64,000 bases of DNA, taken from NCBI GenBank assembly GCA_000026125.1, contig CU207211.1:3286001-3350000 (forward strand), read 5' to 3'. Of the stretch, positions 4,091 to 24,432 are shown piece by piece. Each line of letters begins with the position of its first letter. Positions within the stretch are counted from its first letter, which is position 1. Both the position numbers and the translations under genes were made by a program. The notes below the pieces were generated by a model that was given only the letters and a program-made list of their open reading frames with translations, was not told the DNA's origin and made no database searches. Source of the DNA: Herminiimonas arsenicoxydans. Lineage in GTDB: Bacteria > Pseudomonadota > Gammaproteobacteria > Burkholderiales > Burkholderiaceae_D.

Positions 4091-4834
4091 CTAGGAATAA
4101 TGCGCAGCCTGCGCCATATATTCATGATGTTCAGTATTGATATGCGAAATGCGCCATTCGACCGGCTGATCGTCATATGAATAAGCCACGCGCCGCACCT
4201 CCAGCAAGGGCGCACCTATCGCCAGATGCAACAGATCAGCATAGCGCGCATCGGCGCTGACCGCGCGCAGGCGTTCTTCAATACGAATAATGCTGATGCC
4301 GAAGCGCACCTGGTACAGACTGTACAAGGTGTTCGGGCGATTACGTAGCACTGCTTCCGTAAGCCCGACGAACAACAAATCCGGCACCGTGATGTCATCG
4401 ACGATCACCGGCGCACCCTGCAGGCTCAGGACATTGGTAAATTCATACACCTTGCTGCCAGGCTGACGCAGCTTTTGCACCGCCAGCGTACCTGCTTTCT
4501 TTTTGGCGAAAGCAATCAACTCCAAATGCGGATAGCTCTTGGTACCATCATGGTTAGCCACGTTGAAAAAACGGAACATTTGCTGTTCGCGGTTGTGCAT
4601 GGAGACAAAAGTGCCGCGACCTTGATGCCGGATCAGGATATTTTCCGCGACCAGCTCGTCTATCGCCTTGCGCAAGGTTCCGATCGACACGGAAAACAAT
4701 TCACATAATTTTTTCTCGGCCGGAATCGCTTCGCCGGGTTTCCACTCGCCTGCCGCAAGCGCGCGCAGCACACGACGTTTGACCTCTTTGTAGAGGGTGG
4801 TTCCTACGGTAGTGGAGTGATCGAATTCAAGCAT
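4091..4834 (-). CDS. GntR-family (HutC/UTRA) transcriptional regulator, copy 1
   Basis: About 247 residues from MLEFDHSTT; the frame is open further upstream but that part does not look conserved. There is an N-terminal winged helix-turn-helix of GntR type (GEAIPAEKKLCELFSVS, then TLRKAIDELVAENILIRHQGRGTFV) and a C-terminal UTRA ligand-binding domain ending in a typical VEWRISHINTEHHEY. HutC-type members are usually repressors released by a pathway metabolite. It is divergent from the TSUP/binding-protein/dehydrogenase operon and shares with it a promoter region holding an operator-like element at 4931-4955. A close paralogue lies at 11658-12404 with the same arrangement, so the two probably read the same or related signals. 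I infer it controls the sulfonate genes. Confidence 0.9.
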   Translation of the reverse strand: MLEFDHSTTVGTTLYKEVKRRVLRALAAGEWKPGEAIPAEKKLCELFSVSIGTLRKAIDELVAENILIRHQGRGTFVSMHNREQQMFRFFNVANHDGTKSYPHLELIAFAKKKAGTLAVQKLRQPGSKVYEFTNVLSLQGAPVIVDDITVPDLLFVGLTEAVLRNRPNTLYSLYQVRFGISIIRIEERLRAVSADARYADLLHLAIGAPLLEVRRVAYSYDDQPVEWRISHINTEHHEYMAQAAHYS

Positions 4835-4930
4835 ATTTGTCAATTGTCTCGATGTTGAGCTGTGAGCAGATCTGCTGTGCGGCGTACAAAAAATTCTCAT
4901 GTGGAATTGATCATAGCACCGGAAAGATGA

Positions 4931-4979
4931 AAGTGATACATGTCATATAGTTGACATTGATGATTATGCAGTCTACAGT
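4931..4979 (+). promoter_or_regulatory. Operator-like element and sigma70 promoter of operon A
   Basis: AAGTGATA (4931-4938) and GTCATATAGTTGAC (4942-4955, inverted repeat GTCA-N6-TGAC) are repeated in the same order and spacing at 12491-12515, upstream of the second GntR/operon pair. A good promoter overlaps it: -35 TTGACA (4951-4956), a 17-bp spacer, and -10 TACAGT (4974-4979). An operator over the -35 box fits repression by the adjacent GntR protein. That these proteins bind here is inference from position and conservation. Confidence 0.7.
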
Positions 4980-5066
4980 CGTGCGCAATATGTGGACGAA
5001 GAGCATGCCGGTAATTGCCGGCAGCTGATTGATCAATGTCAATATCAGTGCCTGCGAACTTATTTG

Positions 5067-5804
5067 ATGACTTCTCAATTCGGCGTAGTGTTGTTTGGCG
5101 CGATGCTGGCGGCGATCGTGTCGGGCAGCAGCGGTTTTGCCTTTGGGCTGATTGCTTCGGCGGTCTGGCTGCATGTGCTGGCACCCAGCCAGGTTGTGCC
5201 CCTAGTAGTCGCTTGTTCGCTCTTGGTTAATCTGGTGATGGTGTGGCAGTTGCGCCGCGTAATCAAATTGAATCTGTTATGGCCGTTCTTGCTGGGCGCA
5301 ATGGTCGGCGTACCGATAGGTGTAGCGGCGCTGCATAGCCTGGATGCAAAAATGGTGCGGCAAGGCGTGGGCGCACTACTGATTACTTATAGTACGTACA
5401 TGTTTTTGCAGCCGAAGATGCCGGTGATTCGTCTGACAGGCCTCAGCGGCAAGATTGCCGATGGCGCAGTCGGCATGCTGGGCGGTTTCATGGGAGGGGC
5501 CACCAGCCTCAATGGCGTATTCCCAACCTTGTGGTGCGGTTTGCGCGGCTGGACCAAGTCGGAGCAACGCGGCGTGTTCCAGCCTTATATTTTGATCGTG
5601 CATGCCGTAACGCTGGCATGGATGGGAGGTGCCGGTGAGCTCAATCGGCAAACCGGCATAGATATTTTGCTGTGCGTGCCGGCCTTGTTGATAGGTAGCT
5701 GGCTGGGGCTGCGTTTGTTTCATCACGTCAGCGAAAAGGGATTCCGGAAATTGATGCTCGGTTTGTTCTTCCTGTCCGGATTGGCTTTGGTAGTTTCTCG
5801 ATGA
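5067..5804 (+). CDS. TSUP (TauE/SafE) family membrane permease
   Basis: About 245 residues, almost entirely hydrophobic, with roughly eight membrane segments and the TSUP pattern of an early glycine-rich segment (IVSGSSGFAFGLIASA) and a repeated half (GMLGGFMGGATSLNGVF). The frame is open from 4992 but the family begins with a membrane segment, so ATG 5067 (MTSQFGVVLFG) is chosen. TSUP proteins move anions; several export sulfite or take up or export sulfonates in organosulfonate pathways. It is the first gene of operon A, divergent from the GntR gene. A role in sulfite or sulfonate movement is inferred from the SuyAB and SoeABC genes nearby. Confidence 0.85.
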   Translation: MTSQFGVVLFGAMLAAIVSGSSGFAFGLIASAVWLHVLAPSQVVPLVVACSLLVNLVMVWQLRRVIKLNLLWPFLLGAMVGVPIGVAALHSLDAKMVRQGVGALLITYSTYMFLQPKMPVIRLTGLSGKIADGAVGMLGGFMGGATSLNGVFPTLWCGLRGWTKSEQRGVFQPYILIVHAVTLAWMGGAGELNRQTGIDILLCVPALLIGSWLGLRLFHHVSEKGFRKLMLGLFFLSGLALVVSR

Positions 5805-5892
5805 AAGGTTGTTCTGCAGTTACGCGATAGTCCATTAGAAAAAACTTAACGATTCGGTTTTGTCTCAAATAAATCAAAAACGAGGAGATGTC

Positions 5893-6906
5893 ATGAAATT
5901 TCGCACATTCAGTTTACGCGCGCTAATTGGTTCATGTTTTTTAATGGGAGCGATCGCTAACGTTTCCGCCGAGGTCAACAAAATCGGTATCGCGCAGCAG
6001 TACGGCATCAGCTACCTGCCGCTCATGATCATGGAAGAAAACAAGCTGCTGGAGAAAGCAGCAAAGGAAGCCGGCTTGGGCGACATCACGGTGCAATGGG
6101 CCAAGTTCGCCGGCGGTAACGTCATGAACGATGCGCTGCTGTCCGGCGACCTGCAATTTGCTTCCGGCGGCTTAGGGCCATTCATTACCTTGTGGGCCAA
6201 AACCAAAGACAACATCGGCGTCAGGGCAGTAGCCGCCATGAATTCCATGCCGCTCTTACTGAATACCCGCAACCCTGATATCAAGACGCTGCAAGACTTT
6301 ACCGAAAAAGACAAGATTGCATTACCGGCAGTAAAAGTATCGATCCAGGCGATCACACTGCAAATGGCGGCAGAAAAAGCCTTCGGATCGGGCCAGGAAA
6401 ATCGACTCGATAAATTCACCGTCACGCAATCGCATCCCGATGGCATGGCCGCCATGCTGTCCGGCAGTAGCGAAATCAATAGCCACTTCACTTCCCCACC
6501 CTTCCAATACACGGAACTGGATAGACCCGGCATCCATACGGTAGTCAATTCCTATGAAGTCACCGGCGGACCACATACCTTTAACGTGGTGTGGGCCAGC
6601 AAAAAATTCGTTGATGCGAATCCCAAAACCTATGCCGCATTCCTGAAGGCATTCGACTCGTCGATTGCGATGATCAACAAGGATAAGAAGGCTGCAGCGG
6701 AATTTTATATTCGTGCGAGCAAGTCCAAAGAGAGCGTGGAATCAATCGAAAAAATGCTCAACGATCCGAATATAGAGTTCACCACCACTCCGAAAAACAC
6801 CATGAAATATGCTGATTTCATGTATCGCATCGGCATGGTGAAAGTAAAGCCGGCTTCGTGGAAAGACATGTTTTTCCCGAATATGTACAACCTGCCTGGC
6901 AGCTGA
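5893..6906 (+). CDS. ABC transporter periplasmic substrate-binding protein (NitT/TauT/SsuA type)
   Basis: 337 residues. ATG 5893 has a clear ribosome site GAGGAGA five bases before it. There is a secretory signal peptide (basic start MKFRTFSLR, hydrophobic core, cleavage near NVSA-EVNK). The mature protein starts like the nitrate/sulfonate/taurine binding family (IGIAQQYGISYLPLMIMEE) and has a family-typical GDLQFASGGLGPFITLWAK region. It captures a small anion outside the inner membrane and hands it to an ABC permease. No permease or ATPase is in this operon; the matching pair is in operon B at 14361-16068. The substrate is probably a sulfonated carboxylate, judged from the neighbours. Confidence 0.88.
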   Translation: MKFRTFSLRALIGSCFLMGAIANVSAEVNKIGIAQQYGISYLPLMIMEENKLLEKAAKEAGLGDITVQWAKFAGGNVMNDALLSGDLQFASGGLGPFITLWAKTKDNIGVRAVAAMNSMPLLLNTRNPDIKTLQDFTEKDKIALPAVKVSIQAITLQMAAEKAFGSGQENRLDKFTVTQSHPDGMAAMLSGSSEINSHFTSPPFQYTELDRPGIHTVVNSYEVTGGPHTFNVVWASKKFVDANPKTYAAFLKAFDSSIAMINKDKKAAAEFYIRASKSKESVESIEKMLNDPNIEFTTTPKNTMKYADFMYRIGMVKVKPASWKDMFFPNMYNLPGS

Positions 6907-6935
6907 TCCATCACTCTCATACAAACGGAACTCAG

Positions 6936-7652
6936 ATGACGACAAGTCTCAAGGTCAAGGTCTGGCGCGGCAAGCAGGATGGCGCTTTTGTCAGTTATGA
7001 GGTGCCACGGCGGGAGAGCCAGACCGTGCTGGATGTAGTGACCTACATCCAGCGCCATCTGGATAGCACACTGAGCTATCGCTTCTCCTGCCGGGTCGGG
7101 ATGTGCGGCTCATGCGCGATGACCGTCAATGGCGTCGCGCGCTGGACCTGCCGCACGCACGTGTCGAAAGTGGCCAGCAATGGCGAACTGGAAATCGCGC
7201 CACTGTCTAACCTGCCGGTGGTGAAAGATCTGGCTACCGACATGAGCGAATTCTTCGATAAATGGGCACGCGGCAAAGGTCAGTTCAAAGGCACACGCAC
7301 GCGCCATGAAGAATTCGCCAGCGTCGATCCGGCATCCAAGGCGCGCGTGGCAGCCAGCGCCGGAATCGAGTGCATCGGTTGCGGCGTCTGTTACGCCTCA
7401 TGTGATGTGGTGACGTGGCGTCCGGCCTTTCTCGGCCCCGCAGCACTGAATCGCGCCTGGACTCTGGTCAACGATGTACGCGACGCCAATCAGGAAGAAC
7501 GGCTGCGTGCAGTCGCGGGCGATTCTGGTTGCCATGCCTGTCATACACAAGGTTCGTGTACGCAGCGTTGCCCGAAACAGATCGCACCGACGGCTGGTAT
7601 TGCTGGCCTGAAACTGCTTGCAGCACGCGCGGCACTGCGAGGGAAACTATGA
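6936..7652 (+). CDS. Succinate dehydrogenase/fumarate reductase-like iron-sulfur subunit
   Basis: 238 residues. An N-terminal plant-type ferredoxin domain has the 2Fe-2S ligands C52, C57, C60 and C72 (CRVGMCGSC and later C). A C-terminal domain has two further cysteine sets: C146/C149/C152 with C156 and C199/C202/C208 with C212, matching the 4Fe-4S and 3Fe-4S clusters of SdhB/FrdB. It would pass electrons from the flavoprotein (9859-11601) to the membrane subunits. The reading ends in an ATGA overlap with the next gene. ATG 6936 gives the normal family start; the frame is open further upstream inside the previous gene. It is the first of a set that includes all four complex II subunits, but the order is B-C-D-hydratase-A, unlike a housekeeping sdhCDAB operon. 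Confidence 0.9.
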   Translation: MTTSLKVKVWRGKQDGAFVSYEVPRRESQTVLDVVTYIQRHLDSTLSYRFSCRVGMCGSCAMTVNGVARWTCRTHVSKVASNGELEIAPLSNLPVVKDLATDMSEFFDKWARGKGQFKGTRTRHEEFASVDPASKARVAASAGIECIGCGVCYASCDVVTWRPAFLGPAALNRAWTLVNDVRDANQEERLRAVAGDSGCHACHTQGSCTQRCPKQIAPTAGIAGLKLLAARAALRGKL

Positions 7653-7996
7653 GCAGCGTCGCAGCGCAACAGGCACGTGCGTGGTACGTGCAACGCATCA
7701 GCGCGATGGTATTGGCACTCTGCGTCATCGTGCATATCGGCATCATCATGTATGCCGTGCGTGGCGGTTTGAGCGGCAGCGAAATTCTGGCACGCACACG
7801 CGGCAGCTGGGCATTCGGCTTGTTTTACAGCGTTTTTGTACTGGCTTGTGCCGCACACGTACCGGTCGGGCTGGCCAACATCGCACAGGAATGGCTGGGC
7901 TGGACTGCCGGTCGCTCGCGCATGCTGTCGCTATTGGCGGGGCTGCTGATCCTGGCGATGGGATGGTGTGCAGTATATGGAGTAACACTGTCATGA
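7649..7996 (+). CDS. Succinate dehydrogenase-like membrane anchor subunit (cytochrome b, SdhC type)
   Basis: 115 residues with three hydrophobic segments and the histidine-containing first and second helices expected of a haem-b and quinone-binding complex II anchor (VLALCVIVHIGIIMYAV; LACAAHVPVGLANIAQEW). The start overlaps the iron-sulfur subunit by ATGA, and the end overlaps the next gene. Together with the following gene it would dock the dehydrogenase to the inner membrane and pass electrons to quinone. Small anchors diverge quickly, so the call depends partly on position. Confidence 0.8.
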   Translation: MSSVAAQQARAWYVQRISAMVLALCVIVHIGIIMYAVRGGLSGSEILARTRGSWAFGLFYSVFVLACAAHVPVGLANIAQEWLGWTAGRSRMLSLLAGLLILAMGWCAVYGVTLS

Positions 7997-8349
7997 AGCG
8001 TACCAACGATTACCGCGCCAGATCGCATCCGGCTTACTGGGCTTTTCTCGTACATCGTTTGTCCGGACTGGTGCTGGCCCTGTTCCTGCCGCTGCACTTC
8101 TTGGCGCTCAGCCAGGCTATACGCGGCGAGGCAGAACTCAATGCATTCATCCGTATTGCCGATCAACCCTTGTTCAAGTTCGGCGAATGGGGTCTGGTGG
8201 TGCTGCTATCGCTGCACATGATGGGCGGCGTACGCTTGCTGCTGATCGAGTTTCGCGACTGGAGCGGGACCCGCAACAATTGGATAGCCGCTGCACTTGG
8301 GGTCGGCCTGGCAACCGGATTGGCATTTGCACTTGCCCTTATTAGCTAA
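7993..8349 (+). CDS. Succinate dehydrogenase-like membrane anchor subunit (SdhD type)
   Basis: 118 residues. The start overlaps the preceding gene by four bases. It has three membrane segments, a YWAFLVHRLSG motif typical of SdhC/SdhD cytochrome b556 subunits (the HRxSG signature), and a second conserved histidine in LVVLLSLHMMGGVRLL. It presumably completes the two-subunit anchor of the dehydrogenase. It is followed 20 bp later by the hydratase alpha subunit, in what looks like one transcript. Confidence 0.82.
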   Translation: MKRTNDYRARSHPAYWAFLVHRLSGLVLALFLPLHFLALSQAIRGEAELNAFIRIADQPLFKFGEWGLVVLLSLHMMGGVRLLLIEFRDWSGTRNNWIAAALGVGLATGLAFALALIS

Positions 8350-8369
8350 TACAGACAGGAACGGACACC

Positions 8370-9245
8370 GTGAAAATCGACCTGAAGATAGTTGAAGAGA
8401 CGGCCAAGGAGTTGTATATCCGCGCCCTCAAAATTCTTCCACCCGACATCAAGAGTGGTTTATCGGAGCTGGTAAAACATGAGACCGCACCCAGCGCAAA
8501 AAACATACTGGCGACGATGGTCACCAATATCAGCGTCGCTGAAGCACAAGACAATCTGCTCTGCCAGGACACCGGTGTACCCATTTACAAGATCACCATC
8601 GGCAGCGGCGTTGAAGTCGATGGCTATGCATTGAAGCAGGCGATCCGCACCGGTTGCGAACGCGCCACGCGCGAACATCCGCTGCGCTCCTCCGTCGTCC
8701 ATCCGCTGACGCGCAAAAACGAACACACATCGTGCGGCATAGAAATCCCTGCGATCAGCATCGATTTTTCTCCAACGCCTGATGTGATGACGATACTGAT
8801 GATTCCGAAAGGCAGCGGCTCCGAAAACAATTCCTTCCTGAAGATGGCGATCCCGGCAGAAGGCATAGACGCGATCAAGAAATTCACCGTCGATTGCGTG
8901 CTGGCAGCCGGAGGAAAAACCTGCCCACCGACGATAGTCGGCGTCGGCATAGGCGGCACTTCCGAGTTGTGTGTGGCGCTGGCCAAGCGTGCATCCACGC
9001 GTGCGCTTGGCACGCACTGCGCCGATCCGGCAGGCGCCGAACTGGAACAGCAATTGTCTGCCGCTATCAATGGCCTGGGCGTAGGTCCGCAAGGATTGGG
9101 CGGCGATTCCACGGCATTTGCGGTGCATATAGAATTGGCGGCGACACACATCACGATGAACCCGGTCGCAGTCAATATGCAATGTCATTCCGCGCGACGG
9201 GCGACGGCAACCTTCACGCCAGCCGGCGTGGCTTTCGGATTCTGA
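8370..9245 (+). CDS. Class I fumarase/tartrate dehydratase-like alpha subunit
   Basis: 291 residues with a GTG start. It matches the catalytic iron-sulfur half of two-subunit class I hydro-lyases (TtdA/FumA N-terminal type). Three cysteines suited to holding the 4Fe-4S cluster are present: C65 (LLCQDTG), C185 (GGKTCPP) and C272 (MQCHSARRA). The GSGSENN and VGVGIGG stretches are family signatures. Such enzymes add water across the double bond of fumarate or analogues; some act on mesaconate or tartrate, so substituted fumarates are acceptable family substrates. The gene sits inside the dehydrogenase operon between the anchor and flavoprotein genes, so product passing from dehydrogenase to hydratase is likely. 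Exact substrate unknown. Confidence 0.88.
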   Translation: MKIDLKIVEETAKELYIRALKILPPDIKSGLSELVKHETAPSAKNILATMVTNISVAEAQDNLLCQDTGVPIYKITIGSGVEVDGYALKQAIRTGCERATREHPLRSSVVHPLTRKNEHTSCGIEIPAISIDFSPTPDVMTILMIPKGSGSENNSFLKMAIPAEGIDAIKKFTVDCVLAAGGKTCPPTIVGVGIGGTSELCVALAKRASTRALGTHCADPAGAELEQQLSAAINGLGVGPQGLGGDSTAFAVHIELAATHITMNPVAVNMQCHSARRATATFTPAGVAFGF

Positions 9246-9247
9246 TC

Positions 9248-9862
9248 ATGGCCCATTACGAACTCAGCACGCCAGTGAGCGAAGCGCAGATTCGACAATT
9301 GCGCATCAACGATACGGTGACCTTGCAGCAAACGCTGTTCGGTATACGCGACGCCACCCAGATCCACATGTTCGATCGCGGTCGCACGACGCGCTTCGAC
9401 CTGAACGGTCATGCGGTGATACATACCGCACCGAATGTGAAGAAGGTTGAAGCTAGCGACGCTTACCCCGCTGGCTACCAGCCGATCTGCATAGGCACTA
9501 CCACCTCGGATCGTATGGAGCGGTTCACACGTCCCTTGATGACCAAGAACGGTGTGCGCATCATCATCGGCAAAGGCGGCATGCGCGAAGATTCACTGGC
9601 AGCGTTCGGCGAACTCGGCGGCGTGTATCTGGCCATCGTCGGCGGTACGGCAGCTTTGGAAACCACCTGGATTACGCAAATTGAAGATGTCGATCTGGAT
9701 GATCTGAATCCGGAATCGTTATGGAAATTCCGCATCGCCAATTTCGGTCCTTTGCTGGTAGCGATGGATAGCCATGGCGGCAGTCTGTACAACGACATCA
9801 ACAAAGGTATGCAAGCGCGCCGCGCAGAAGTACTGGCCAGCCTTGGAGTGAAAAGCACATGA
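9248..9862 (+). CDS. Class I fumarase/tartrate dehydratase-like beta subunit
   Basis: 204 residues starting at ATG 9248, two bases after the alpha-subunit stop. It resembles the C-terminal (TtdB-like) half of class I fumarases: LQQTLFGIRDATQIHMF near the start and the conserved GTTTSDRMERFTRPLM and IIIGKGGM stretches. Together with the preceding gene it would form the active heteromeric hydro-lyase. It overlaps the flavoprotein gene by ATGA. Confidence 0.88.
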   Translation: MAHYELSTPVSEAQIRQLRINDTVTLQQTLFGIRDATQIHMFDRGRTTRFDLNGHAVIHTAPNVKKVEASDAYPAGYQPICIGTTTSDRMERFTRPLMTKNGVRIIIGKGGMREDSLAAFGELGGVYLAIVGGTAALETTWITQIEDVDLDDLNPESLWKFRIANFGPLLVAMDSHGGSLYNDINKGMQARRAEVLASLGVKST

Positions 9863-11601
9863 GCACCAACACCAGCATCAAGCGCGTAGTGACGGACATT
9901 CTGGTACTGGGCTCAGGCGGTGCCGGCCTGTTTGCCGCATTGCATGCGCATCAAGCCAATCCGGAGCTATCGATCACGGTGGCGGTAAAAGGCTTGCTCG
10001 GCAAGTCCGGCTGTACACGCATGGTGCAAGGCGGCTACAACGTCGCATTGGCTGAAGGCGATTCGATCGAACGGCATTTCATGGATACCATCGAAGGCGG
10101 CAAATGGCTGTCCGATCAGGATCTGGCGTGGACGCTGGTCACCAAGGCGATCGAACGCATCCATGAACTGGAAAACGAACTCGGCTGCTTCTTTGATCGC
10201 AATCCGGATGGCACCGTGCATCAGAAAGCCTTCGCCGGCCAGACTTTCGATCGCACAGTGCACAAGGGCGACCTGACCGGAATTGAAATCATGAACCGGC
10301 TGGCCGAACAAATCTGGCATCGCGGCATCGCGCGACTGGAAGAACATCGTGCAGTGGAATTGATCAAGACCGCAGACGGCAAATCGCTGGCCGGCGTGTT
10401 GATGATAGACATGCGCTGCGGAGAATTTGTCTTCGTGCAAGCCAAGGCCGTGTTGCTGGCGACCGGCGGCGGCCCGACCATGTATAAATTCCACACACCG
10501 TCTGGCGAAAAAAGCTGCGACGGCTTGGCCATGGCTTTGCGTGCCGGATTACCGTTACGCGATATGGAGATGGTGCAATTTCATCCAACCGGATTATTGG
10601 CCGGGCCGGATACCCGTATGACAGGCACCGTGCTGGAAGAGGGCTTGCGCGGTGCCGGCGGCTATCTGCTCAATGGCTTGAAAGAGCGCTTCATGCAGAA
10701 CTACGATCCGCGCAAGGAACGCGCCACGCGCGATATCGTATCGCGCTCGATTTATTCCGAAATGCGTGCCGGACGTACTACGCCCAATGGTGGCGTATAC
10801 ATCCAGATGGCGCACTTGGGACCAGAAAAAGTACGTGTGCAATTCAAGGGCATGGTCGAGCGTTGTGCCGATTGCGGCTTTGATCTCGCCGCTGACTTGG
10901 TGGAAGTGGTGCCAACCGCGCATTACATGATGGGTGGCGTGATCTTCCGACCTGATTGCACGACGGCATTGCACGGCTTGTTTGCAGCCGGCGAAGATAC
11001 CGGCGGCGTGCACGGTGCCAATCGCTTGGGTGGCAATGGTGTTGCCAACTCCACCGTGTTTGGCGGCATAGCTGGCGAATCGATGGCAGCATGGCTGCTC
11101 AACAACAATGAATTGCGCGAACCCGATATTGCCGCGATCGAACTAAGCATCACGGCGCATCGCGCACCGTTCGGCAATCCGATCGGCAATCTGCAAGCCT
11201 TGCGTGAAGCGCTGTACGAATGCATGTGGGAAGACGTCGGCATCTTGCGTACCGCAGAAGGTTTGCGCCGCGGGATCGCCAAGCTGGCGGAATTGGATCG
11301 CGAGTTATTAACTATCGGCGTGGCCGACGATGATCCTGCATTCAATATGACCTGGCATGACTGGATGAATCTGCGTAGCTTGCTGGCCGTCAGTCGTGTG
11401 ATTGCGACGGCAGCGCTGGCGCGTGAAGATTCGCGCGGTGCGCACTTCCGCGAAGATGCACCGCAGACCAGTGCATTGGCTACGTCTGCTTATACGGTAG
11501 TGAAACAAGATGGCGATGCCTTGACGGTAACGACGCAGGCAGTGAATTTTGTGCGGGTCAAACCAGGCGAGACATTACTGGTCGAGACAGAGAGCGCTTG
11601 A
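9859..11601 (+). CDS. Succinate dehydrogenase/fumarate reductase-like flavoprotein subunit
   Basis: 580 residues. The N-terminal FAD site is ILVLGSGGAGLFAALHA. Dicarboxylate-binding and catalytic residues of complex II are all present: FHPTG (241-245), E261 and R264, R291 in RDIVS, H355 in PTAHYMMGG and R389 in GANRLGGN. At the point where SdhA/FrdA has the histidine that binds FAD covalently (S-H-T before the QGG motif), this protein has GCTRMVQGG, so the covalent flavin bond is probably absent. It overlaps the hydratase beta gene by ATGA and is the last gene of operon A. It would oxidise a C4 dicarboxylate or an analogue. I think it is not the housekeeping SDH, because of the gene order, the missing histidine and the sulfonate context. 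Confidence 0.88.
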   Translation: MSTNTSIKRVVTDILVLGSGGAGLFAALHAHQANPELSITVAVKGLLGKSGCTRMVQGGYNVALAEGDSIERHFMDTIEGGKWLSDQDLAWTLVTKAIERIHELENELGCFFDRNPDGTVHQKAFAGQTFDRTVHKGDLTGIEIMNRLAEQIWHRGIARLEEHRAVELIKTADGKSLAGVLMIDMRCGEFVFVQAKAVLLATGGGPTMYKFHTPSGEKSCDGLAMALRAGLPLRDMEMVQFHPTGLLAGPDTRMTGTVLEEGLRGAGGYLLNGLKERFMQNYDPRKERATRDIVSRSIYSEMRAGRTTPNGGVYIQMAHLGPEKVRVQFKGMVERCADCGFDLAADLVEVVPTAHYMMGGVIFRPDCTTALHGLFAAGEDTGGVHGANRLGGNGVANSTVFGGIAGESMAAWLLNNNELREPDIAAIELSITAHRAPFGNPIGNLQALREALYECMWEDVGILRTAEGLRRGIAKLAELDRELLTIGVADDDPAFNMTWHDWMNLRSLLAVSRVIATAALAREDSRGAHFREDAPQTSALATSAYTVVKQDGDALTVTTQAVNFVRVKPGETLLVETESA

Positions 11602-11608
11602 TCGATAA

Positions 11609-11647: not shown

Positions 11648-11657
11648 GCGTGACAAA

Positions 11658-12490: not shown

Positions 12491-12539
12491 AAGTGATATA
12501 GGTCATATAGTTGACTTGAGCGAAAAGTAGTCATAGTAT
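12491..12539 (+). promoter_or_regulatory. Operator-like element and sigma70 promoter of operon B (suyAB onward)
   Basis: AAGTGATA (12491-12498) and GTCATATAGTTGAC (12502-12515) match the element at 4931-4955 at 23 of 25 positions. The overlapping promoter has -35 TTGACT (12511-12516), a 17-bp spacer and -10 TAGTAT (12534-12539), the same geometry as the operon A promoter. The suyA ribosome site AAAGGAG lies 60 bp further on. Confidence 0.7.
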
Positions 12540-17018: not shown

Positions 17019-17120
17019 TGTTGTTGTGATGTTGCGCCACGGCCTGGCGTCGTGGCGTATTTCGCACTTTGTTCCCAGCTTGCTTTTCAGCTTGCCTCTC
17101 AACCTGTTTCAGGGAGTTTT

Positions 17121-18131
17121 ATGGCCTTGGTTACGATAGATGAATTAACGTCCCTTACCATGCTCGCACTTGAGAAAGCCGGTGCCAGCCTGTCAGCCGC
17201 CAAAGCTGCAGCACGCGCGCTGGTAGCGGCAGATGCACAGGGATTGGCCTCGCATGGCGTGTCGCGCGTGCCACAGTACACAACGTTTTTACGCAATGGT
17301 CGCAGCTCCACCACGGCGATACCCAAGATCGTGCACTCCAAGGGCGGCGCGTGTCTGATCGATGCGCAATCCGGCATGGCGTACGAAGCATGTGCACTGG
17401 CGATCCAGACTGCGACTGCACGCGCACGTGAGTTCGGCATCAGTTGCGTCGGCGTCACCAACAGCAATCACTTCGGTGCCGCTGCCGTACATCTGGAACC
17501 ATTGGGTCGCGCCGGTCTGGTCGGACTGGCATTCAGCAATTCACCTGCAGCCATGCCTGCGTGGGGTGGCAAGACACCTTTATTCGGCACCAATCCCATC
17601 GCCGCAATTTTTCCGCGCCGCGATGCCGAACCGCTGGTTATCGATCTTGCCTTGAGCGAAGCAGCCCGCGGCAAGATCATGCTGGCCGCAAAAGACGGCA
17701 AACCGATTCCGCTCGGCTGGGCAGTCGACAAGGATGGCAAGCCAACCACCGATGCCAAGGCGGCGCTGGCCGGCAGCATGTTGCCGGTGGGTGGCGTAAA
17801 AGGCGCGATGATTGCGCTGACGGTGGAACTGTTGGCGATAGCCTTGACGGGTTCAGCTTTCGGTTTCGAAGCCGATTCGTTTTTCTCCGACGAGGGCAAT
17901 CAACCGCGTCTGGGTCAGTTATTCCTGGCCATCGATCCGGGTGCATTGGCCGGTTCCGATGTCTATTTCAGTCGCATCGAAACCTTGCTGGGCATGATGC
18001 TGCAGGATGATGGCGTACGCCTGCCGGGAGAACGCCGTCACGGCCTCGCCGTCAAAGCAGCACAACACGGCATTGAAATTCCGGATGCCTTGCATGCGCA
18101 GATAGTCGCGCTGGCAGGCCGCCTGTCATGA
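17121..18131 (+). CDS. comC: (R)-sulfolactate dehydrogenase ComC-type (malate/L-lactate dehydrogenase 2 family)
   Basis: 336 residues from ATG 17121, with GGAG just before it. Ldh2/MDH2 family: conserved DAQGLASHGVSR, the GVTNSNHFGAA motif with the catalytic histidine, and the nucleotide-binding FGTNPIAAIFPR region. ComC reduces 3-sulfopyruvate to (R)-sulfolactate with NADPH, so with SlcC it turns (S)- into (R)-sulfolactate, the SuyAB substrate. The order slcC-comC in one operon with suyAB matches known sulfolactate degradation modules. It overlaps soeA by ATGA. A related malate or ureidoglycolate dehydrogenase is possible from sequence alone. Confidence 0.83.
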   Translation: MALVTIDELTSLTMLALEKAGASLSAAKAAARALVAADAQGLASHGVSRVPQYTTFLRNGRSSTTAIPKIVHSKGGACLIDAQSGMAYEACALAIQTATARAREFGISCVGVTNSNHFGAAAVHLEPLGRAGLVGLAFSNSPAAMPAWGGKTPLFGTNPIAAIFPRRDAEPLVIDLALSEAARGKIMLAAKDGKPIPLGWAVDKDGKPTTDAKAALAGSMLPVGGVKGAMIALTVELLAIALTGSAFGFEADSFFSDEGNQPRLGQLFLAIDPGALAGSDVYFSRIETLLGMMLQDDGVRLPGERRHGLAVKAAQHGIEIPDALHAQIVALAGRLS

Positions 18132-21016
18132 CAAGCCCCGACCAGACAGGCACGACTGAAGTCAAATGTACGACCTGTTATATGTGCGCATGCCGCTGCG
18201 GCGTGCGCGTCCATCTGCGCGATGGCGAAGTCCGCTATATCGATGGCAATCCCGATCACCCCTTGAATCAGGGTGTGATCTGCGCCAAGGGCGCTTCCGG
18301 CGCGATGAAACAATATTCACCGGCGCGCCTGACCAAACCCTTGTTGCGCAAACCCGGTGCGGAACGCGGCGCAGCCGAGTTCACCGAAATTTCATGGGAA
18401 GAAGCCTTCGCGCTGCTGACTGAGCGACTGGCGAAAATCCGTTCCACCGACCCACGCAAATTTGCGCTCTTCACCGGGCGCGACCAGATGCAGGCCTTGA
18501 CCGGCCTGTTTGCGCGACAATTCGGCACACCCAATTACGCAGCGCACGGCGGCTTCTGTTCGGTCAACATGGCCGCCGGCATGATCTACACCATCGGCGG
18601 CTCGTTCTGGGAATTCGGCGGCCCCGATCTCGACCGCGCCAAGCTCTTCATCATGCTCGGCACTGCGGAAGACCATCACTCCAACCCGATGAAAATCGCC
18701 TTGTCGAAGTTCAAGCGCAACGGCGGCAAATTCATTTCGATCAATCCTATCCGCACCGGCTATTCCGCGATTGCCGATGAATGGGTGCCGATCAAGCCAG
18801 GCACCGATGGCGCATTGCTGCTGGCGCTGATCCACGAAATCATTGCGCTCGGCCTGTACGATCGAGAATTCCTGGTGCGCTATACGAATGCCGGCCAACT
18901 CATCAATCAGGATGCGCAAAGCGACGACTTCGGCCTGTTTGTCGAAGATGAGACAACAGAAGTCGTCAACCCGATGTTCCCGCAAAACAAACTGTGGTGG
19001 GATCGCCTGACAAAAGAACCGGTACCGACACACACCGACGGTGCCGATCCGTACCTGTTCGGTACCTTCACGCTACCGGACGGTACGGCAGTGGCACCCG
19101 CCTTCGAACTACTCAAGGAACGCGTCAAACGCTACACGCCCGAATGGGCGGCCGGCGTAACCGGCATCTCGGCCGCATGCATACGCCGTCTGGCCAATGA
19201 AATGGGCGTGATCGCACGCGACCAAAAGATAGAGTTGCAAATCCCGTGGACCGACAGCTGGGGCCGCGAACACAAGACGGTAACCGGCAATCCGGTTGCT
19301 TTCCATGCGATGCGTGGATTGGCCGCACATTCCAACGGTTTTCAGACCACGCGCGCGCTGGCAATTCTGATGTCGCTGCTGGGCACCATCGACAGGCCGG
19401 GCGGCTTCCGTCACAAAGCGCCCTTCCCGCGCGCCATTCCGCCTAGCGCCAAACCGCCGAACAGTCCGGCCGCAGTCCAGCCGGATACGCCATTGAGTGG
19501 CTTGCCTTTGGGCTGGCCGGGCGACCCCAACGATCTGTTCGTCGACGATGCCGGCGAGCCGGTACGCATAGACAAAGGCTTTTCGTGGGAACATCCGCTC
19601 TCGGTACATGGCCTGATGCACAACGTCATCACCAATGCCTGGCGCGGCGATCCGTATCCCATCGATACGCTGCTGATCTTCATGGCCAATATGGCGTGGA
19701 ACTCCAGCATGAACACCAGCGAAGTGCGTCAGATGTTGAACGACAAGGACGACAAGGGCGAATACAAGATTCCATTTCTGGTAGTGTGCGATGCCTTCCA
19801 GTCGGAGACTACTGCGTTCGCTGATCTGATACTGCCGGATACGACTTATCTGGAACGGCATGACGTCATGTCTATGCTGGACCGGCCGATTTCGGAATTT
19901 GATGGTCCGGTCGATGCCGTGCGTATTCCGGTGCTGCCGCCGACCGGCGACTGCAAGCCCTTCCAGGAAGTACTGATCGAACTGGGTGGACGACTCAAGC
20001 TGCCCGCATTTACCAAACCGGATGGCAGCCGCAAGTTCCGCGATTACCCCGACTTCATCGTCAACTATGAAACCGAACCAGGTTCCGGCATAGGTTTCCT
20101 CGCAGGCTGGCGTGGCCTCGGCGGTGAGAAATCGATGAAGGGCGAACCCAATCCCAAGCAGTGGGAGATGTATGCCAAGAACGGTTGCGTGTTCCACCAC
20201 AAGATGCCGCCGTCCTACAGCTATATGCGCAACTGGAACAAAGGCTATATGGAGTGGGCGCAACGCATGCGCATCCGCCGCTTTGCCGATCCTATCCTGA
20301 TTCATATCTATTCAGATGTGATGCAGAAATTCCGCCTCGCCGCGCAAGGCAAGCGCCCCGGCAAGCAGCCGCCGGAACGCCTGCGCGCGCGCATAGCAAC
20401 CTACTTCGATCCGCTGCCGTTTTACTACGAACCACTGGAAGTCCAAAGCGGCGATACCGCCAAATATCCGCTCAACGCCGTGACGCAAAGACCGATGGCG
20501 ATGTATCACTCGTGGGATTCGCAGAATGCGTGGCTGCGCCAGATTCATACGCACAACTATTTGTTCGTCAATCCATTGCTGGCGCAAACCAGCGGCATCG
20601 CTGACGGTGGCTGGATGTGGGTCGAATCGATGTGGGGCAAGGTGCGTTGCATGTGTCGCTACAGCGAAGCGGTAGAACCCGGCACGGTCTGGACCTGGAA
20701 TGCCATCGGCAAAGCAGCGGGCGCCTGGCATCTCGAAAGCGGCGCCAACGAATCGCAAAAAGGCTTCCTGCTGAATCATCTGATTTCAGAAGAATTACCG
20801 GCTGCAGCCGATGGCACTCGCCTGTCGAATTCCGATCCGGTTACCGGACAAGCCGGCTGGTATGACGTGCGGGTACGTATCTATCCCGCCGGTGCAGATG
20901 AACCGAAACAGACCTGGCCGCAATTCGCCACCATGCCGGCGCTGCCGGGCACCAGCACCATCAAGAAAGTCTGGATGGCCTACAAAGCCGGTAGCGGCCG
21001 GGGAGAAAACAAATGA
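18128..21016 (+). CDS. soeA: Cytoplasmic sulfite:quinone oxidoreductase, molybdopterin subunit SoeA
   Basis: 962 residues. It is a DMSO-reductase-family molybdopterin enzyme: N-terminal 4Fe-4S cysteines (C14, C17, C20, C24 and a later one in GVICAKG), then the molybdenum-binding region with C144 in HGGFCSVN as the probable metal ligand. There is no twin-arginine signal, so it acts in the cytoplasm. SoeA is the catalytic subunit that oxidises sulfite to sulfate. It fits here because SuyAB releases sulfite inside the cell. It overlaps comC and soeB by ATGA. Other members of the family (tetrathionate, polysulfide or arsenate enzymes) were considered; they usually have a Tat signal and different neighbours. 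Confidence 0.88.
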   Translation: MTSPDQTGTTEVKCTTCYMCACRCGVRVHLRDGEVRYIDGNPDHPLNQGVICAKGASGAMKQYSPARLTKPLLRKPGAERGAAEFTEISWEEAFALLTERLAKIRSTDPRKFALFTGRDQMQALTGLFARQFGTPNYAAHGGFCSVNMAAGMIYTIGGSFWEFGGPDLDRAKLFIMLGTAEDHHSNPMKIALSKFKRNGGKFISINPIRTGYSAIADEWVPIKPGTDGALLLALIHEIIALGLYDREFLVRYTNAGQLINQDAQSDDFGLFVEDETTEVVNPMFPQNKLWWDRLTKEPVPTHTDGADPYLFGTFTLPDGTAVAPAFELLKERVKRYTPEWAAGVTGISAACIRRLANEMGVIARDQKIELQIPWTDSWGREHKTVTGNPVAFHAMRGLAAHSNGFQTTRALAILMSLLGTIDRPGGFRHKAPFPRAIPPSAKPPNSPAAVQPDTPLSGLPLGWPGDPNDLFVDDAGEPVRIDKGFSWEHPLSVHGLMHNVITNAWRGDPYPIDTLLIFMANMAWNSSMNTSEVRQMLNDKDDKGEYKIPFLVVCDAFQSETTAFADLILPDTTYLERHDVMSMLDRPISEFDGPVDAVRIPVLPPTGDCKPFQEVLIELGGRLKLPAFTKPDGSRKFRDYPDFIVNYETEPGSGIGFLAGWRGLGGEKSMKGEPNPKQWEMYAKNGCVFHHKMPPSYSYMRNWNKGYMEWAQRMRIRRFADPILIHIYSDVMQKFRLAAQGKRPGKQPPERLRARIATYFDPLPFYYEPLEVQSGDTAKYPLNAVTQRPMAMYHSWDSQNAWLRQIHTHNYLFVNPLLAQTSGIADGGWMWVESMWGKVRCMCRYSEAVEPGTVWTWNAIGKAAGAWHLESGANESQKGFLLNHLISEELPAAADGTRLSNSDPVTGQAGWYDVRVRIYPAGADEPKQTWPQFATMPALPGTSTIKKVWMAYKAGSGRGENK

Positions 21017-21744
21017 CGCAAATGGCGCTGGTGATAGACCTCAACGTTTGCGTAGGCTGCCAGGCTTGCGTAACCAGTTGCAAATCGTGGAATACCTCGG
21101 GCATCGCCGGCACGCTGGCCGATGACCGCCCGTATGGCGAAAATCCGACCGGCACCTTCTTCAATCGCGTGCAGACTTACGAGGTGGGACGCTTTCCGGC
21201 GACCGACACCGTGCACTTTCCCAAATCGTGTCTGCATTGCGAAGAGCCGCCGTGCGTGCCGGTATGTCCGACCGGTGCCAGCTACAAACGCGAAAGTGAT
21301 GGCCTCGTACTGGTCGATTACGACAAGTGCATCGGTTGCAATTACTGCGCGTGGGCTTGTCCATATGGCGCACGTGAACTGGATGAACACCGCCAGGAAA
21401 TGAGCAAGTGCACGCTATGCGCCGATCGCATCGACAACCCATCCCTGCCGCCGCAGGATCGCCAGCCGGCATGCGTGATGGCCTGCCCTACCAGTGCGCG
21501 CCTGTTCGGCGACATCCATGATCCAGAATCCATCGTCTCTGTTGCCATCCGCGAACAAGGCGGTTACCAACTGATGCCGGAATGGGGCACCAAGCCATCC
21601 AACCATTATCTGCCGCGCCGCAAAGTCGAAATCAAATTGCACGAAGACCAGCTGGAGCGGATCGAAAATCCCTTGCACATCGATGGCAAGCTGCCCAAAC
21701 CGGGCTTGTATGAACCGTCGCTGGATGACGTCGCCTCCTGGTAA
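21013..21744 (+). CDS. soeB: Sulfite:quinone oxidoreductase iron-sulfur subunit SoeB
   Basis: 243 residues with four cysteine clusters typical of DmsB/NrfC-type electron-transfer subunits: CVGCQACVTSC near the start, CLHCEEPPCVPVCPTGA, CIGCNYCAWACPYGA, and CTLCADRI with a later CVMACPT. It takes electrons from SoeA and passes them to the membrane subunit SoeC. It has no signal peptide, which agrees with a cytoplasmic enzyme. It overlaps soeA by four bases. Confidence 0.9.
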   Translation: MTQMALVIDLNVCVGCQACVTSCKSWNTSGIAGTLADDRPYGENPTGTFFNRVQTYEVGRFPATDTVHFPKSCLHCEEPPCVPVCPTGASYKRESDGLVLVDYDKCIGCNYCAWACPYGARELDEHRQEMSKCTLCADRIDNPSLPPQDRQPACVMACPTSARLFGDIHDPESIVSVAIREQGGYQLMPEWGTKPSNHYLPRRKVEIKLHEDQLERIENPLHIDGKLPKPGLYEPSLDDVASW

Positions 21745-21789
21745 ACGTCACCAGTAAACGCTATCAATCGACAGACAGGATAGGTCTCC

Positions 21790-22734
21790 ATGAATCCCGC
21801 TTTTTCGGTAATTTTTCTGACCACGCTGATCGGCGTCGGGCAAGGCTTGTTCATCGCGCTGTATGCCGCGCACTTGCTGGCCTTGCTCGGCCTCATCGCA
21901 CCATCCGACAGCTACCAGTTTCATACGCTGGGTAGTGCATTGTCCCTGGCGTTCCTGGGCTGCGGTTTATTCGCCTCGTTTTTCCATCTCGGCCATCCGG
22001 AACGCGCCTGGCGCGCAGCGACGATGTGGCGCACATCGTGGCTATCACGTGAAGTCATTGCCTTGCCATTTTTCATGCTGGCCGTGTTTGCGTATGGCGC
22101 GGCACATTTTTTCGGATGGCAATCGGCGGCGACCATCATCGGCGGCATCGCGCTGATCCTGTGCATCACGCTATTCGTCTGTACCGGGATGATCTACGGC
22201 TGCATCAAGTTTTTGCAGGAGTGGGCCACACCGCTGACCATCGTCAACTACACACTACTAGGCTGCGCCTCCGGCTTTACACTGGCAACTGCCTTCAGCC
22301 TGCCCACCGCTCCAGCGCTCGTCACCATCTTTGGCGTCACGGCTATCGTATTGACGCTGGCGTCCTTGATGACACGTCTTGCATCGCTCGCCCGCAACGC
22401 CCGCCTGAAACCGCGCTCGACGCTGCAAACCGCCACCGGCATCCGGCATCCGCATATCTTGCAAAAGGCACAGGGAGCTATGGGCGGTTCATTCAACACG
22501 CGGCATTATTTCCATGGGAAAAGCCCGCTGTTCTTCCGCTCCATCAAATGGATTTTCCTGCTGCTGGTATTTCCACTACCCCTGCTGCTGTTAGGTAACG
22601 GGCTGCTTCATGCATCCCTGCTCTTGCTGGGTACGGCCTTCGTGGTGCAATACGCCGGCCTCATCGCGGAGCGCTGGTTCTTTTTTGCACAGGCCAATCA
22701 TCCGCAAAATCTGTACTACCAGCAGATATCCTGA
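21790..22734 (+). CDS. soeC: Sulfite:quinone oxidoreductase membrane anchor SoeC (DmsC type)
   Basis: 314 residues with about eight membrane segments, of the DmsC family (early LFIALYAAHLLALLG, then FHLGHPERAWRAA, a family hallmark). It anchors SoeAB to the inside of the membrane and reduces quinone. The start ATG 21790 follows a 45-bp gap after soeB. Six bases separate its stop from the SulP gene, so they are probably co-transcribed. Confidence 0.88.
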   Translation: MNPAFSVIFLTTLIGVGQGLFIALYAAHLLALLGLIAPSDSYQFHTLGSALSLAFLGCGLFASFFHLGHPERAWRAATMWRTSWLSREVIALPFFMLAVFAYGAAHFFGWQSAATIIGGIALILCITLFVCTGMIYGCIKFLQEWATPLTIVNYTLLGCASGFTLATAFSLPTAPALVTIFGVTAIVLTLASLMTRLASLARNARLKPRSTLQTATGIRHPHILQKAQGAMGGSFNTRHYFHGKSPLFFRSIKWIFLLLVFPLPLLLLGNGLLHASLLLLGTAFVVQYAGLIAERWFFFAQANHPQNLYYQQIS

Positions 22735-22740
22735 GCTGCC

Positions 22741-24432
22741 ATGCGCGTCGACTTCAGACGACTGCTTCCATTTTTGCACTGGCCGCGCCCGAGTGCAGAC
22801 TCATTGCGGCGCGATATATGGGCCGGCCTCAGCGTCGGCCTGGTACTGATTCCGCAAGCACTGGCCTATGCCACGCTAGCCGGCATGCCGCCGCAAACCG
22901 GCCTGTATGCAGCCTTGCTGCCCAGCGTCATCGGCATCCTGTGGGGCTCGTCGGCATTGCTGGCGGTTGGTCCGGTGGCGCTGACCAGCATCCTCACGTT
23001 TGGCTCGCTATCGCCTATGGCTGCAGCGGGCAGCGCCGATTGGGTCGCACTGGCAATCTGGCTGTCAGTCTATGCGGGCGCAATCCAGTTTCTGCTTGGC
23101 GCTTGCAAGATGGGCAAGATCACTTATCTGGTGTCGCAACCGGTAGTGATGGGCTTTATCAATGCCGCCGCCGTCATCATCGTACTATCGCAACTGCCTG
23201 GCCTGTTGGGACTGGATCTGCACGCCGGCAGCGCGATGACGCAAGTCGGCAATCTGCTGGCGGGCGCGCCGGCGATGCTGTTGACGACCGCCTTCGGACT
23301 CGGCGCCTTGTTTTTATTACTGGCCTTGAAACGCTATGCACCCCATGTTCCCGGCATGCTGATAGTGACTGTATTGGGTATCGCCGCCAGTTGGGCCATC
23401 GATTATGCAGGCCATGGCGGCGCCATCGTTGGTACCTTGCCAGTCGGATTGCCGCCCTTATCCTTACCGCCTGCCATCAGCTGGGGGGCACATCAGGCGC
23501 TGTGGCCGGCTGCCACTATCCTGGCCATCATCAGTTTCACCGAAGCGATGTCCAGCTGCCGTGTCTTGGCCCGCAAAACCAATGAACGCTGGGATGAAAA
23601 TCAGGAGTTGATCGGCCAGGGCCTGGCCAAGATCACCAGCGGTTTCAGTGGTGCGTTCCCGGTCAGTGGATCATTCTCGCGTTCCGCCCTGAACATTTAT
23701 GCCGGTGCCACCAGCGCCTGGGCATCGCTGATTGCAGCCGCTTGCGTATTGTTGAGCCTGTATTTCCTCACCACGCCGATAGCCTATCTGCCGTATTCGG
23801 TATTGGCAGCAATGATTATGGTGCCGGTATTCAGGCTGCTGGATTTCCGTGCTTTCCCGCGCCTGCTCCGCATTTCGCGCGACGATGGGCTGGTGGCGAT
23901 CGTGACCTTCGGCGTCACGCTATGGTGTACGCCCAGCCTGCACTATGGCGTGTTCGCCGGCGTCGGCATCACCATGGTGTCTTTCCTGTATCGACATACC
24001 CATCCGCGCGTCATCGAAGTAGGCGTGCACAAGGACGGCACGCTACGCGACCGCAAGCGCTTCCATCTGCCGCCACTCGCACCGGACATACTGGCAGTCA
24101 GAATGGACTCGACCTTGAATTTTCTGACCGCTGCCACGCTGGAGCGCTTCATCACCGAATATCGCGGCCGCGACAAGGGCATCCGACGTGTACTGCTATG
24201 CGCCAGCGGCATCAACGACATCGACGCCAGTGGCATCGAGACGCTGGAATCCCTGCGACAAAGCCTGAGGGCGGAAGGTCTGGAACTGTACTTCACCGCA
24301 GTGAAAAAACAGGTATGGGATGTACTGGAGCGCGCCGGCTTGATTGCAGCGATGGGCCCGGATCACATGTTTCAAACGGATAGAGAAGCAATAGCCGTAT
24401 TGCATGCCGATGCAGCAAACACAATGAACTGA
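22741..24432 (+). CDS. SulP-family anion transporter with STAS domain
   Basis: 563 residues. There are 10-12 membrane segments with the SulP start (DIWAGLSVGLVLIPQALAYATLAGMPPQTGLYA) and the conserved FSGAFPVSGSFSRSALN stretch, then a C-terminal STAS domain (about residues 440-555, with SGINDIDASGIETLESL). SulP proteins transport sulfate, bicarbonate or related anions. It is the last gene of the sulfonate operon directly after the sulfite oxidase, so handling of the sulfate made by SoeABC is a reasonable guess; direction and substrate are not visible. Confidence 0.88.
   Translation: MRVDFRRLLPFLHWPRPSADSLRRDIWAGLSVGLVLIPQALAYATLAGMPPQTGLYAALLPSVIGILWGSSALLAVGPVALTSILTFGSLSPMAAAGSADWVALAIWLSVYAGAIQFLLGACKMGKITYLVSQPVVMGFINAAAVIIVLSQLPGLLGLDLHAGSAMTQVGNLLAGAPAMLLTTAFGLGALFLLLALKRYAPHVPGMLIVTVLGIAASWAIDYAGHGGAIVGTLPVGLPPLSLPPAISWGAHQALWPAATILAIISFTEAMSSCRVLARKTNERWDENQELIGQGLAKITSGFSGAFPVSGSFSRSALNIYAGATSAWASLIAAACVLLSLYFLTTPIAYLPYSVLAAMIMVPVFRLLDFRAFPRLLRISRDDGLVAIVTFGVTLWCTPSLHYGVFAGVGITMVSFLYRHTHPRVIEVGVHKDGTLRDRKRFHLPPLAPDILAVRMDSTLNFLTAATLERFITEYRGRDKGIRRVLLCASGINDIDASGIETLESLRQSLRAEGLELYFTAVKKQVWDVLERAGLIAAMGPDHMFQTDREAIAVLHADAANTMN

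Follow-up and report, generated by a model that had tools for sequence, protein, structure and literature searches.

The window analysed here is a 64,000-nucleotide stretch of the Herminiimonas arsenicoxydans genome (single contig CU207211.1, 3,424,307 bp; window at 3286001-3350000), and it holds two neighbouring operons, A and B, which probably constitute one inducible pathway for 3-sulfopropanoate (3-SP). Operon A (5067-11601) encodes, in this order, TauE, a transporter binding protein, SdhB, SdhD, SdhC, the alpha and beta subunits of a hydratase, and SdhA; from SdhB onwards, adjacent genes are 2-20 bases apart or overlap. Operon B consists of SuyA, SuyB, the ATPase and permease of an ATP-binding cassette (ABC) transporter, SlcC, ComC, SoeA, SoeB, SoeC and SulP. 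A divergently transcribed GntR/UTRA regulator gene lies upstream of each operon (Table 1).

Pfam and NCBIfam matches and homologues confirm what an earlier note on this DNA had described, namely a complex II-like dehydrogenase and a two-subunit hydratase similar to class I fumarase, beside SuyAB, SlcC, ComC and SoeABC. All four dehydrogenase subunits listed in that note are present; SdhD has no Pfam match and is named by its place, its hydrophobicity and its homologues, and its tblastn matches include genes annotated 'succinate dehydrogenase membrane anchor' on two Methylobacterium plasmids. The closest NCBIfam match of ComC is the L-sulfolactate dehydrogenase model NF040650 (219 bits, below the cut-off of 500), and for SoeA none of the NCBIfam models listed reaches its cut-off. 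SuyA, SuyB, SlcC and ComC share 49%, 66%, 57% and 46% identity with Paracoccus versutus genes whose annotations go no further than UxaA family (small and large), hydroxyacid dehydrogenase and Ldh family; we read these as the probable sulfolactate cluster of that organism. Elsewhere the host genome has a second class I fumarase and a second flavoprotein of succinate dehydrogenase (SDH), the latter having the active-site Thr and the SHT flavin motif that are usual for this enzyme; the module in operon A is, therefore, an extra set.

Table 1. Features of operons A and B (positions in the window) and of related loci (positions following an L number are those in that locus)
Feature	Position	Strand	Basis or remark
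GntR/UTRA regulator 1, divergent from operon A	4091..4900	-	PF00392 + PF07702
Operator-like element A	4933..4957	+	25-bp match with 12493-12517; overlaps sigma-70-like -35 box
TauE/SafE family exporter (sulfite or sulfonate)	5067..5804	+	PF01925, 7.8e-28; start set by eye
ABC substrate-binding protein, aliphatic-sulfonate SsuA/NMT1 type	5893..6906	+	PF13379; TIGR01728 below cut-off
SdhB-like iron-sulfur subunit	6936..7652	+	Fer2_3 + Fer4 (Pfam); TIGR00384 187.8 bits, over cut-off on longer open reading frame (ORF)
SdhD-like membrane anchor	7649..7996	+	Position, hydrophobicity, tblastn homologues; no Pfam match
SdhC-like cytochrome b subunit	7993..8349	+	PF01127 (Sdh_cyt); TIGR02970 over cut-off on longer ORF
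Hydratase alpha (type 1), class I fumarase/tartrate dehydratase family, proposed 3-sulfoacrylate hydratase	8370..9245	+	PF05681, 4.8e-88
Hydratase beta (type 1)	9248..9862	+	PF05683, 4.7e-29
SdhA-like flavoprotein, separate clade, proposed 3-sulfopropanoate dehydrogenase	9859..11601	+	FAD_binding_2 + Succ_DH_flav_C
GntR/UTRA regulator 2, divergent from operon B	11658..12404	-	PF00392 + PF07702
Operator-like element B	12493..12517	+	25-bp match with 4933-4957
SuyA, (R)-sulfolactate sulfo-lyase small subunit	12608..12889	+	Adjoins SuyB; homologues; no Pfam match
SuyB, sulfolactate sulfo-lyase large subunit, GD_AH family	13013..14182	+	PF20629/PF04295
ABC transporter ATPase, likely partner of operon A binding protein	14361..15149	+	PF00005
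ABC permease, SsuC/TauC type	15146..16068 (start provisional)	+	PF00528; NCBIfam below cut-offs
SlcC-like (S)-sulfolactate dehydrogenase	16035..17018	+	PF02826/PF00389 (2-Hacid_dh)
ComC-like (R)-sulfolactate dehydrogenase	17052..18131	+	PF02615 (Ldh_2)
SoeA-like molybdopterin subunit of sulfite dehydrogenase	18128..21016	+	Molybdopterin domains; SoeA name inferred
SoeB-like iron-sulfur subunit	21013..21744	+	PF13247
SoeC-like membrane anchor	21790..22734	+	PF04976 (DmsC)
SulP-family anion permease, probably sulfate release	22741..24432	+	PF00916 + STAS
Methylmalonate-semialdehyde dehydrogenase	L127 15427-16917; L037 4842-6332; L135 6031-7506; L138 7618-9093		All over TIGR01722 cut-off
ArgH/XcbC-like protein	L131 10215-11717; L132 10284-11786		Beside SdhAB + SuyAB, haloarchaea

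Two features of the locus, both absent from the earlier note, tie operon A to operon B. The genes of one ABC transporter are divided between them, with the binding protein in A and the ATPase and permease in B, and the fronts of the two operons share a 25-bp element, which at operon A overlaps the -35 box of a sigma-70-like promoter identified by eye (TTGACA-17-TACAGT). The element was matched in none of 100 shuffles of the window, a test that mainly shows the mutual match of the two copies from which the pattern was derived. Its 14-bp core occurs exactly at only these two sites in the genome and with one mismatch at two further sites; allowing two mismatches raises the number to 12 sites, which does not exceed the 12 of the reversed control. 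Conservation in relatives is stronger evidence than the shuffle test for the tie between A and B: the element precedes both operons in four of them (mismatches in the two copies: L030, 0/0; L031, 0/1; L032, 0/4; L034, 1/3), and in L033 it stands before operon A with one mismatch, the contig stopping ahead of operon B. In L035 the closest match has six mismatches.

When one carboxylate is replaced by a sulfonate group, succinate becomes 3-sulfopropanoate, fumarate becomes 3-sulfoacrylate, and malate becomes 3-sulfolactate. Because 3-SP is an isostere of succinate, the chemistry of SDH and fumarase acting on it would yield the substrate of SuyAB in two steps. In the pathway that we propose, 3-SP would be taken up by the split ABC transporter and dehydrogenated to 3-sulfoacrylate by the quinone-linked complex II homologue (SdhABCD-like), and the iron-sulfur hydratase (FumAB-like, called type 1 below) would add water to form 3-sulfolactate. 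SuyAB would then split sulfolactate into pyruvate and sulfite, SoeABC would oxidise sulfite to sulfate, TauE and SulP would export anions, and SlcC with ComC would admit (S)-sulfolactate as well. The substrate, which is likely to be 3-SP, is one of several inferred properties of the pathway, along with direction, regiochemistry, stereochemistry and induction. Addition of water as in L-malate would produce, by Cahn-Ingold-Prelog rules, (R)-sulfolactate. This is the form used by SuyAB according to the passage cited from PMC9594981, where SlcC and ComC are proposed as a pair that racemises (S)- and (R)-sulfolactate. The same sequence, from 3-SP via sulfoacrylate to sulfolactate, has been recorded for Roseovarius nubinhibens growing on homotaurine, in a thesis cited in a passage of PMC11489063. 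Sources that include the same passage describe bacterial formation of 3-SP from sulfoquinovose or 2,3-dihydroxypropanesulfonate (DHPS) and from homotaurine, the latter by an enzyme of the GabD-like type, and respiration of 3-SP to H2S by Bilophila.

The dehydrogenase of the module is, judging by its sequence, a clade apart from ordinary SDH. Module SdhA (self score 1316) reaches 251 bits and 37% identity with the next-best match in the genome, and is 34-35% identical to E. coli SdhA and FrdA. Orthologues, 62-99% identical, were found in 7 of 294 genomes of the family and 11 of 398 genomes of the phylum, at thresholds chosen after the search of the host genome (E<=1e-150 and E<=1e-110, respectively); a plasmid collection added 18 further records, the lowest identity being 48% in Haloarcula. 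No curated SdhA/FrdA model was passed, all 25 models listed among 33 matching being below cut-off, and the best-scoring NCBIfam model, likewise below cut-off, was TfrA, the flavoprotein of thiol:fumarate reductase.

We aligned 111 SdhA sequences, i.e., that of the window and those of 110 loci, including five near-duplicate pairs. His242, Glu261, Arg291, His355 and Arg389 are kept throughout and correspond to E. coli SdhA His242, Glu255, Arg286, His354 and Arg399, which, together with Thr254, we take to be substrate-binding residues. Thr254 itself is replaced by Glu260 in all 111 sequences, and position 253, in a longer adjacent loop, is Arg in 107 and Lys in four. The FAD-linking His is also replaced: Cys52 pairs with the His of E. 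coli FrdA both in the HMMER alignment and in MAFFT, and 17 of 17 sequences compared at this position have the Cys; opposite His45 of E. coli SdhA, MAFFT placed a gap. An enzyme of this kind might hold a thioether-linked or non-covalent flavin. The module thus resembles succinate dehydrogenase/fumarate reductase in its flavoprotein, iron-sulfur and membrane subunits and catalytic His and Arg residues, but differs in the Thr-to-Glu change at the substrate site, the His-to-Cys change at the flavin and the sulfonate setting of its loci. Glu260 and Cys52 could serve as candidate markers of the clade.

The alpha subunit of the hydratase passes PRK06246, a fumarate hydratase model, as well as TIGR00722, and keeps the Cys and other motif residues; the beta subunit scores 136 bits against TIGR00723, below the cut-off of 145, and keeps Arg34, Thr85, Ser87, Arg89 and Lys109. 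The two-subunit form and the conserved Cys, Arg, Lys and Thr motifs are shared with class I fumarase and tartrate dehydratase; unlike ordinary class I fumarase, the module hydratase is clustered with sulfonate genes in a genome that has another class I fumarase. A precedent for lyase chemistry on sulfoacrylate is XcbC of bacterial coenzyme M synthesis, a member of the argininosuccinate-lyase/fumarase superfamily that forms sulfoacrylate (passage cited from PMC8727900), but XcbC lies outside the class I hydratase family.

The earlier note had proposed looking for this gene set in other genomes, and it is indeed found there. We scanned named genomes and took the best 80 of 578 confirmed stretches, a choice that favours close relatives, deriving layouts from tblastn. 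All six module genes occur in 65 of these 80 loci, in the order SdhB-D-C-FumA-FumB-SdhA in every one of the 65. In 24 of the 80, the gap between the end of SuyB and a downstream SdhB on the same strand is under 3 kb, and in L071 and L077 the arrangement SuyAB-SdhBDC-TauE-binding protein-ABC-FumAB-SdhA occupies one strand. Plasmid pMRAD01 of M. radiotolerans carries a similar gene set under general annotations. Among 50 long (at least 19 kb), non-redundant loci with the type-1 hydratase, SuyB is seen in 39, ComC in 40, SlcC in 27, and the binding protein in 18. At the level of whole genomes, with SuyB called at E<=1e-110 and Xsc by a score over the model cut-off, SuyB is present in 12 of the 294 family genomes and in six of the seven that carry the SdhA clade (Fisher 7e-9). 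In the phylum, SuyB is found in 15, Xsc in 26 and either one in 37 of 398 genomes, and all 11 carriers fall in the union (p 1e-12, kinship uncorrected); the six carriers that lack SuyB all have Xsc. According to a passage in PMC6278857, R. nubinhibens cleaves sulfolactate by the Xsc route. The shared element, the split transporter, the genome-wide co-occurrence and the single-cluster versions bear out the idea of the earlier note that the dehydrogenase and hydratase feed the sulfolactate path, and we consider it very probable that operon A supplies operon B.

Several other genes recur near the module. An acetolactate-synthase-like thiamine-diphosphate enzyme (L126 13736-15361, and others), scoring below the cut-off of every model listed, is near 23 of 51 long type-1 loci and four of 18 long loci of the type-2 kind discussed below. 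Genes of the histidinol-dehydrogenase family stand near the module in L036, L040, L063 and L140, accompanied in L040 and L140 by a short-chain dehydrogenase/reductase and a Zn-dehydrogenase; from their context these may be HpsN, HpsO and HpsP for DHPS, although the one in L063 passes the HisD model.

The substrate suggested in the earlier note was sulfosuccinate, which would be dehydrogenated to sulfofumarate, hydrated to 2-hydroxy-3-sulfosuccinate, and oxidised with loss of CO2 to 3-sulfopyruvate, to reach SuyAB via sulfolactate. Complex II and fumarase chemistry is natural on a C4 acid, Arg/Lys253 could bind the third anion, and clustering with SuyAB suits any feeder of sulfolactate. The scheme was said to explain every gene without an unseen enzyme, but the oxidation of 2-hydroxy-3-sulfosuccinate and the decarboxylation are two further conversions that have no dedicated gene, and SlcC and ComC already have a proposed function as a racemising pair (PMC9594981). 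A dehydrogenase of the methylmalonate-semialdehyde type, found in three type-2 lineages, suits a C3 skeleton better than C4, and no paper with both sulfosuccinate and sulfolactate was among those listed by searches of the open-licence literature of PubMed Central (PMC). Sulfosuccinate as the substrate is thus not supported and appears very improbable, given that just two steps lead from 3-SP to sulfolactate, that bacteria are known to produce 3-SP, and that the route is on record. Somewhat less improbable is another sulfur-containing analogue of succinate, such as 3-sulfinopropanoate or a substituted 3-SP, acted upon by the same two enzymes. In its favour, Glu260 in the active site is unexplained, and in Sulfitobacter THAF37 a gene annotated as 3-sulfinopropanoyl-CoA desulfinase lies some 11 kb away from the module; however, SuyAB requires a sulfonate, and hydration of 3-sulfoacrylate yields its substrate directly.

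Family-level homology, with the alpha subunit passing PRK06246, would also suit a spare SDH and fumarase (or tartrate dehydratase) that merely routes the pyruvate carbon of sulfolactate through the Krebs cycle. We give this reading little credence: the genome already holds another SDH flavoprotein and class I fumarase, the module enzyme is of a separate clade with an invariant Thr-to-Glu change at a substrate residue, a binding protein and TauE are in the same operon, and the clade co-occurs with SuyB or Xsc. The least credible option is the reverse direction, in which sulfoacrylate derived from sulfolactate or cysteate would act as an electron sink by being reduced to 3-SP. In favour of this, complex II homologues can work in both directions, the TfrA model scores best (if below its cut-off) with SdhA, and a legend in PMC11489063 describes a TauE of Enterococcus gilvus as probably exporting 3-SP; yet the uptake systems and the genes for sulfite oxidation or sulfate export in the window and its relatives mark the loci as catabolic.

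Some observations weigh against a 3-SP pathway. Glu260, located by the anionic end of the substrate, is unexpected for sulfonate binding, and the same genes could also serve for sulfosuccinate or a different succinate-like sulfonate. The seventh family carrier (G025), whose module copy is on an 8.2-kb contig, lacks SuyB throughout its assembly, and 11 of the 50 long type-1 loci have no full SuyB in the stretch (L061 has a partial one at the edge). Five of the six phylum carriers without SuyB belong to a single family, f55, in which Xsc is present in 15 of 26 genomes and the within-family p is 0.046; a sulfonate role argued from Xsc alone inside this family was dropped as too weak. Finally, no gene for making 3-SP is linked to the type-1 loci: with thresholds of at least 40% to E. 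coli GabD and at least 35% to E. coli GabT, neither a GabD-like nor a GabT-like gene was seen in 82 such loci, 51 of them long. One of 20 type-2 loci has a GabD-like gene and none a GabT-like one, and GabT/GabD neighbours were dropped as general evidence for homotaurine. A GabD-like dehydrogenase about 9.5 kb after SdhA in NT-26 is a point in favour of 3-SP; partial GabD-like matches also occur in L128, L139 and L134 (Rhodococcus RHA1, hydratase type unclassified). In the window, an aminotransferase-like ORF at 47658-48956 (minus strand), 34% identical to E. coli GabT, is the best GabT-like match of the genome.

In the type-2 loci the same dehydrogenase (62-71% identity) is accompanied by a different class I hydratase, 37/28% identical to type 1. 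The type-1 alpha subunit scores 228 bits against a fumarate hydratase of known structure (PDB 7xky_A) and 182 bits against type 2, which suggests that the two hydratases were recruited separately. SuyB was found in the fetched stretch of none of 16 long non-redundant type-2 loci, and a full CoA-acylating methylmalonate-semialdehyde dehydrogenase is present in four of the 16 versus none of the 50 type-1 loci (Fisher 0.0025); as two of the four are from Cupriavidus, three lineages are represented. Of the 18 long type-2 loci before de-duplication, six have a match to a sulfate exporter, three to a sulfite oxidase, and seven to TauE. The semialdehyde dehydrogenase is the basis for a tentative idea, to which we assign a low probability: in the type-2 branch, hydration may put the hydroxyl on the sulfonate-bearing carbon and so desulfonate directly. 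This would produce 3-hydroxy-3-sulfopropanoate, which as a bisulfite adduct would fall apart into malonate semialdehyde and sulfite, and in some lineages the CoA-acylating (methyl)malonate-semialdehyde dehydrogenase would then give acetyl-CoA. If true, plain hydration would be enough for desulfonation, and neither SuyAB, Xsc or CuyA nor a radical enzyme or oxygen would be needed. Its odds are lowered by two of the four supporting loci, L037 (genome G436) and L135 (near-identical to G547), because SuyB and Xsc are encoded elsewhere in the own or near-identical genome; in all, three of nine type-2 carriers in the phylum sample (G547, G436, G572) have SuyB elsewhere. The distinction of types is blurred further by two Paracoccus genomes in which roughly 6 kb separate the type-2 module from ComC/SlcC and roughly 21 kb separate it from SuyAB. 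The host genome has one methylmalonate-semialdehyde dehydrogenase over cut-off outside the window (C1:3372874), which is uninformative either way.

Two haloarchaea have SdhA and SdhB beside SuyAB, TauE and, in place of FumAB, an ArgH-like protein, which in Natribaculum scores 323 bits with ArgH (over cut-off) and 260 bits with XcbC (below cut-off). This protein may be either an ordinary ArgH or a sulfoacrylate hydratase of a third, unrelated kind. That the whole SdhA clade comprises the 3-sulfopropanoate dehydrogenases of bacteria and haloarchaea, combined with at least two separately recruited fumarase-like hydratases, is part of the same joint reading and is likewise doubtful. The desulfinase-annotated gene of Sulfitobacter THAF37 (L136 24415-25587) is near a type-2 module. 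In two related type-2 genomes (L044, L045) a homocysteine S-methyltransferase-family gene (L044 11588-12502) is placed between the hydratase subunits; no SuyAB, SlcC, ComC or TauE match was seen within the fetched 20 kb of either module, so that what connects them with sulfonates is the Xsc encoded elsewhere in the genome. At the left end of the window (207-3896) there are tandem cyanophycin synthetase-like genes, one short and partial, the other full-length.

Operon B resembles the sulfolactate degradation systems of Paracoccus and Chromohalobacter in its SuyA, SuyB, SlcC and ComC homologues and sulfite oxidation genes; unlike them, the H. arsenicoxydans locus adds operon A, with its complex II-like dehydrogenase, fumarase-like hydratase, transporter binding protein and the same operator-like element. 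The intermediates that we propose are those of the homotaurine/3-SP route of R. nubinhibens ISM (thesis via PMC11489063), where cleavage is by Xsc instead of the SuyAB of the window, and the passage cited names no genes. No locus titled Roseovarius was among the best 80 of 578 stretches, in a scan that was not aimed at R. nubinhibens ISM. In the parts of the open-licence PMC literature covered, no gene was assigned to 3-SP dehydrogenation or sulfoacrylate hydration; prior publication in a thesis or subscription literature is possible. Passages in three papers bear on 3-SP breakdown: a 2022 review holds that 3-SP degradation needs further investigation (PMC9594981), a 2024 iScience paper on formation of 3-SP by Enterococcus gilvus states that bacterial degradation of 3-SP is unreported (PMC11489063), and a 2026 review calls the mechanism in Bilophila unclear (PMC12890257).

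The module is, on genomic grounds, a strong candidate for the genes of 3-SP breakdown. The locus offers, along with these candidate genes, a simple mechanism, i.e., the succinate-to-malate half of the Krebs cycle carried out on sulfonate isosteres, and, if true, it would show a core respiratory enzyme retuned to a sulfonate.

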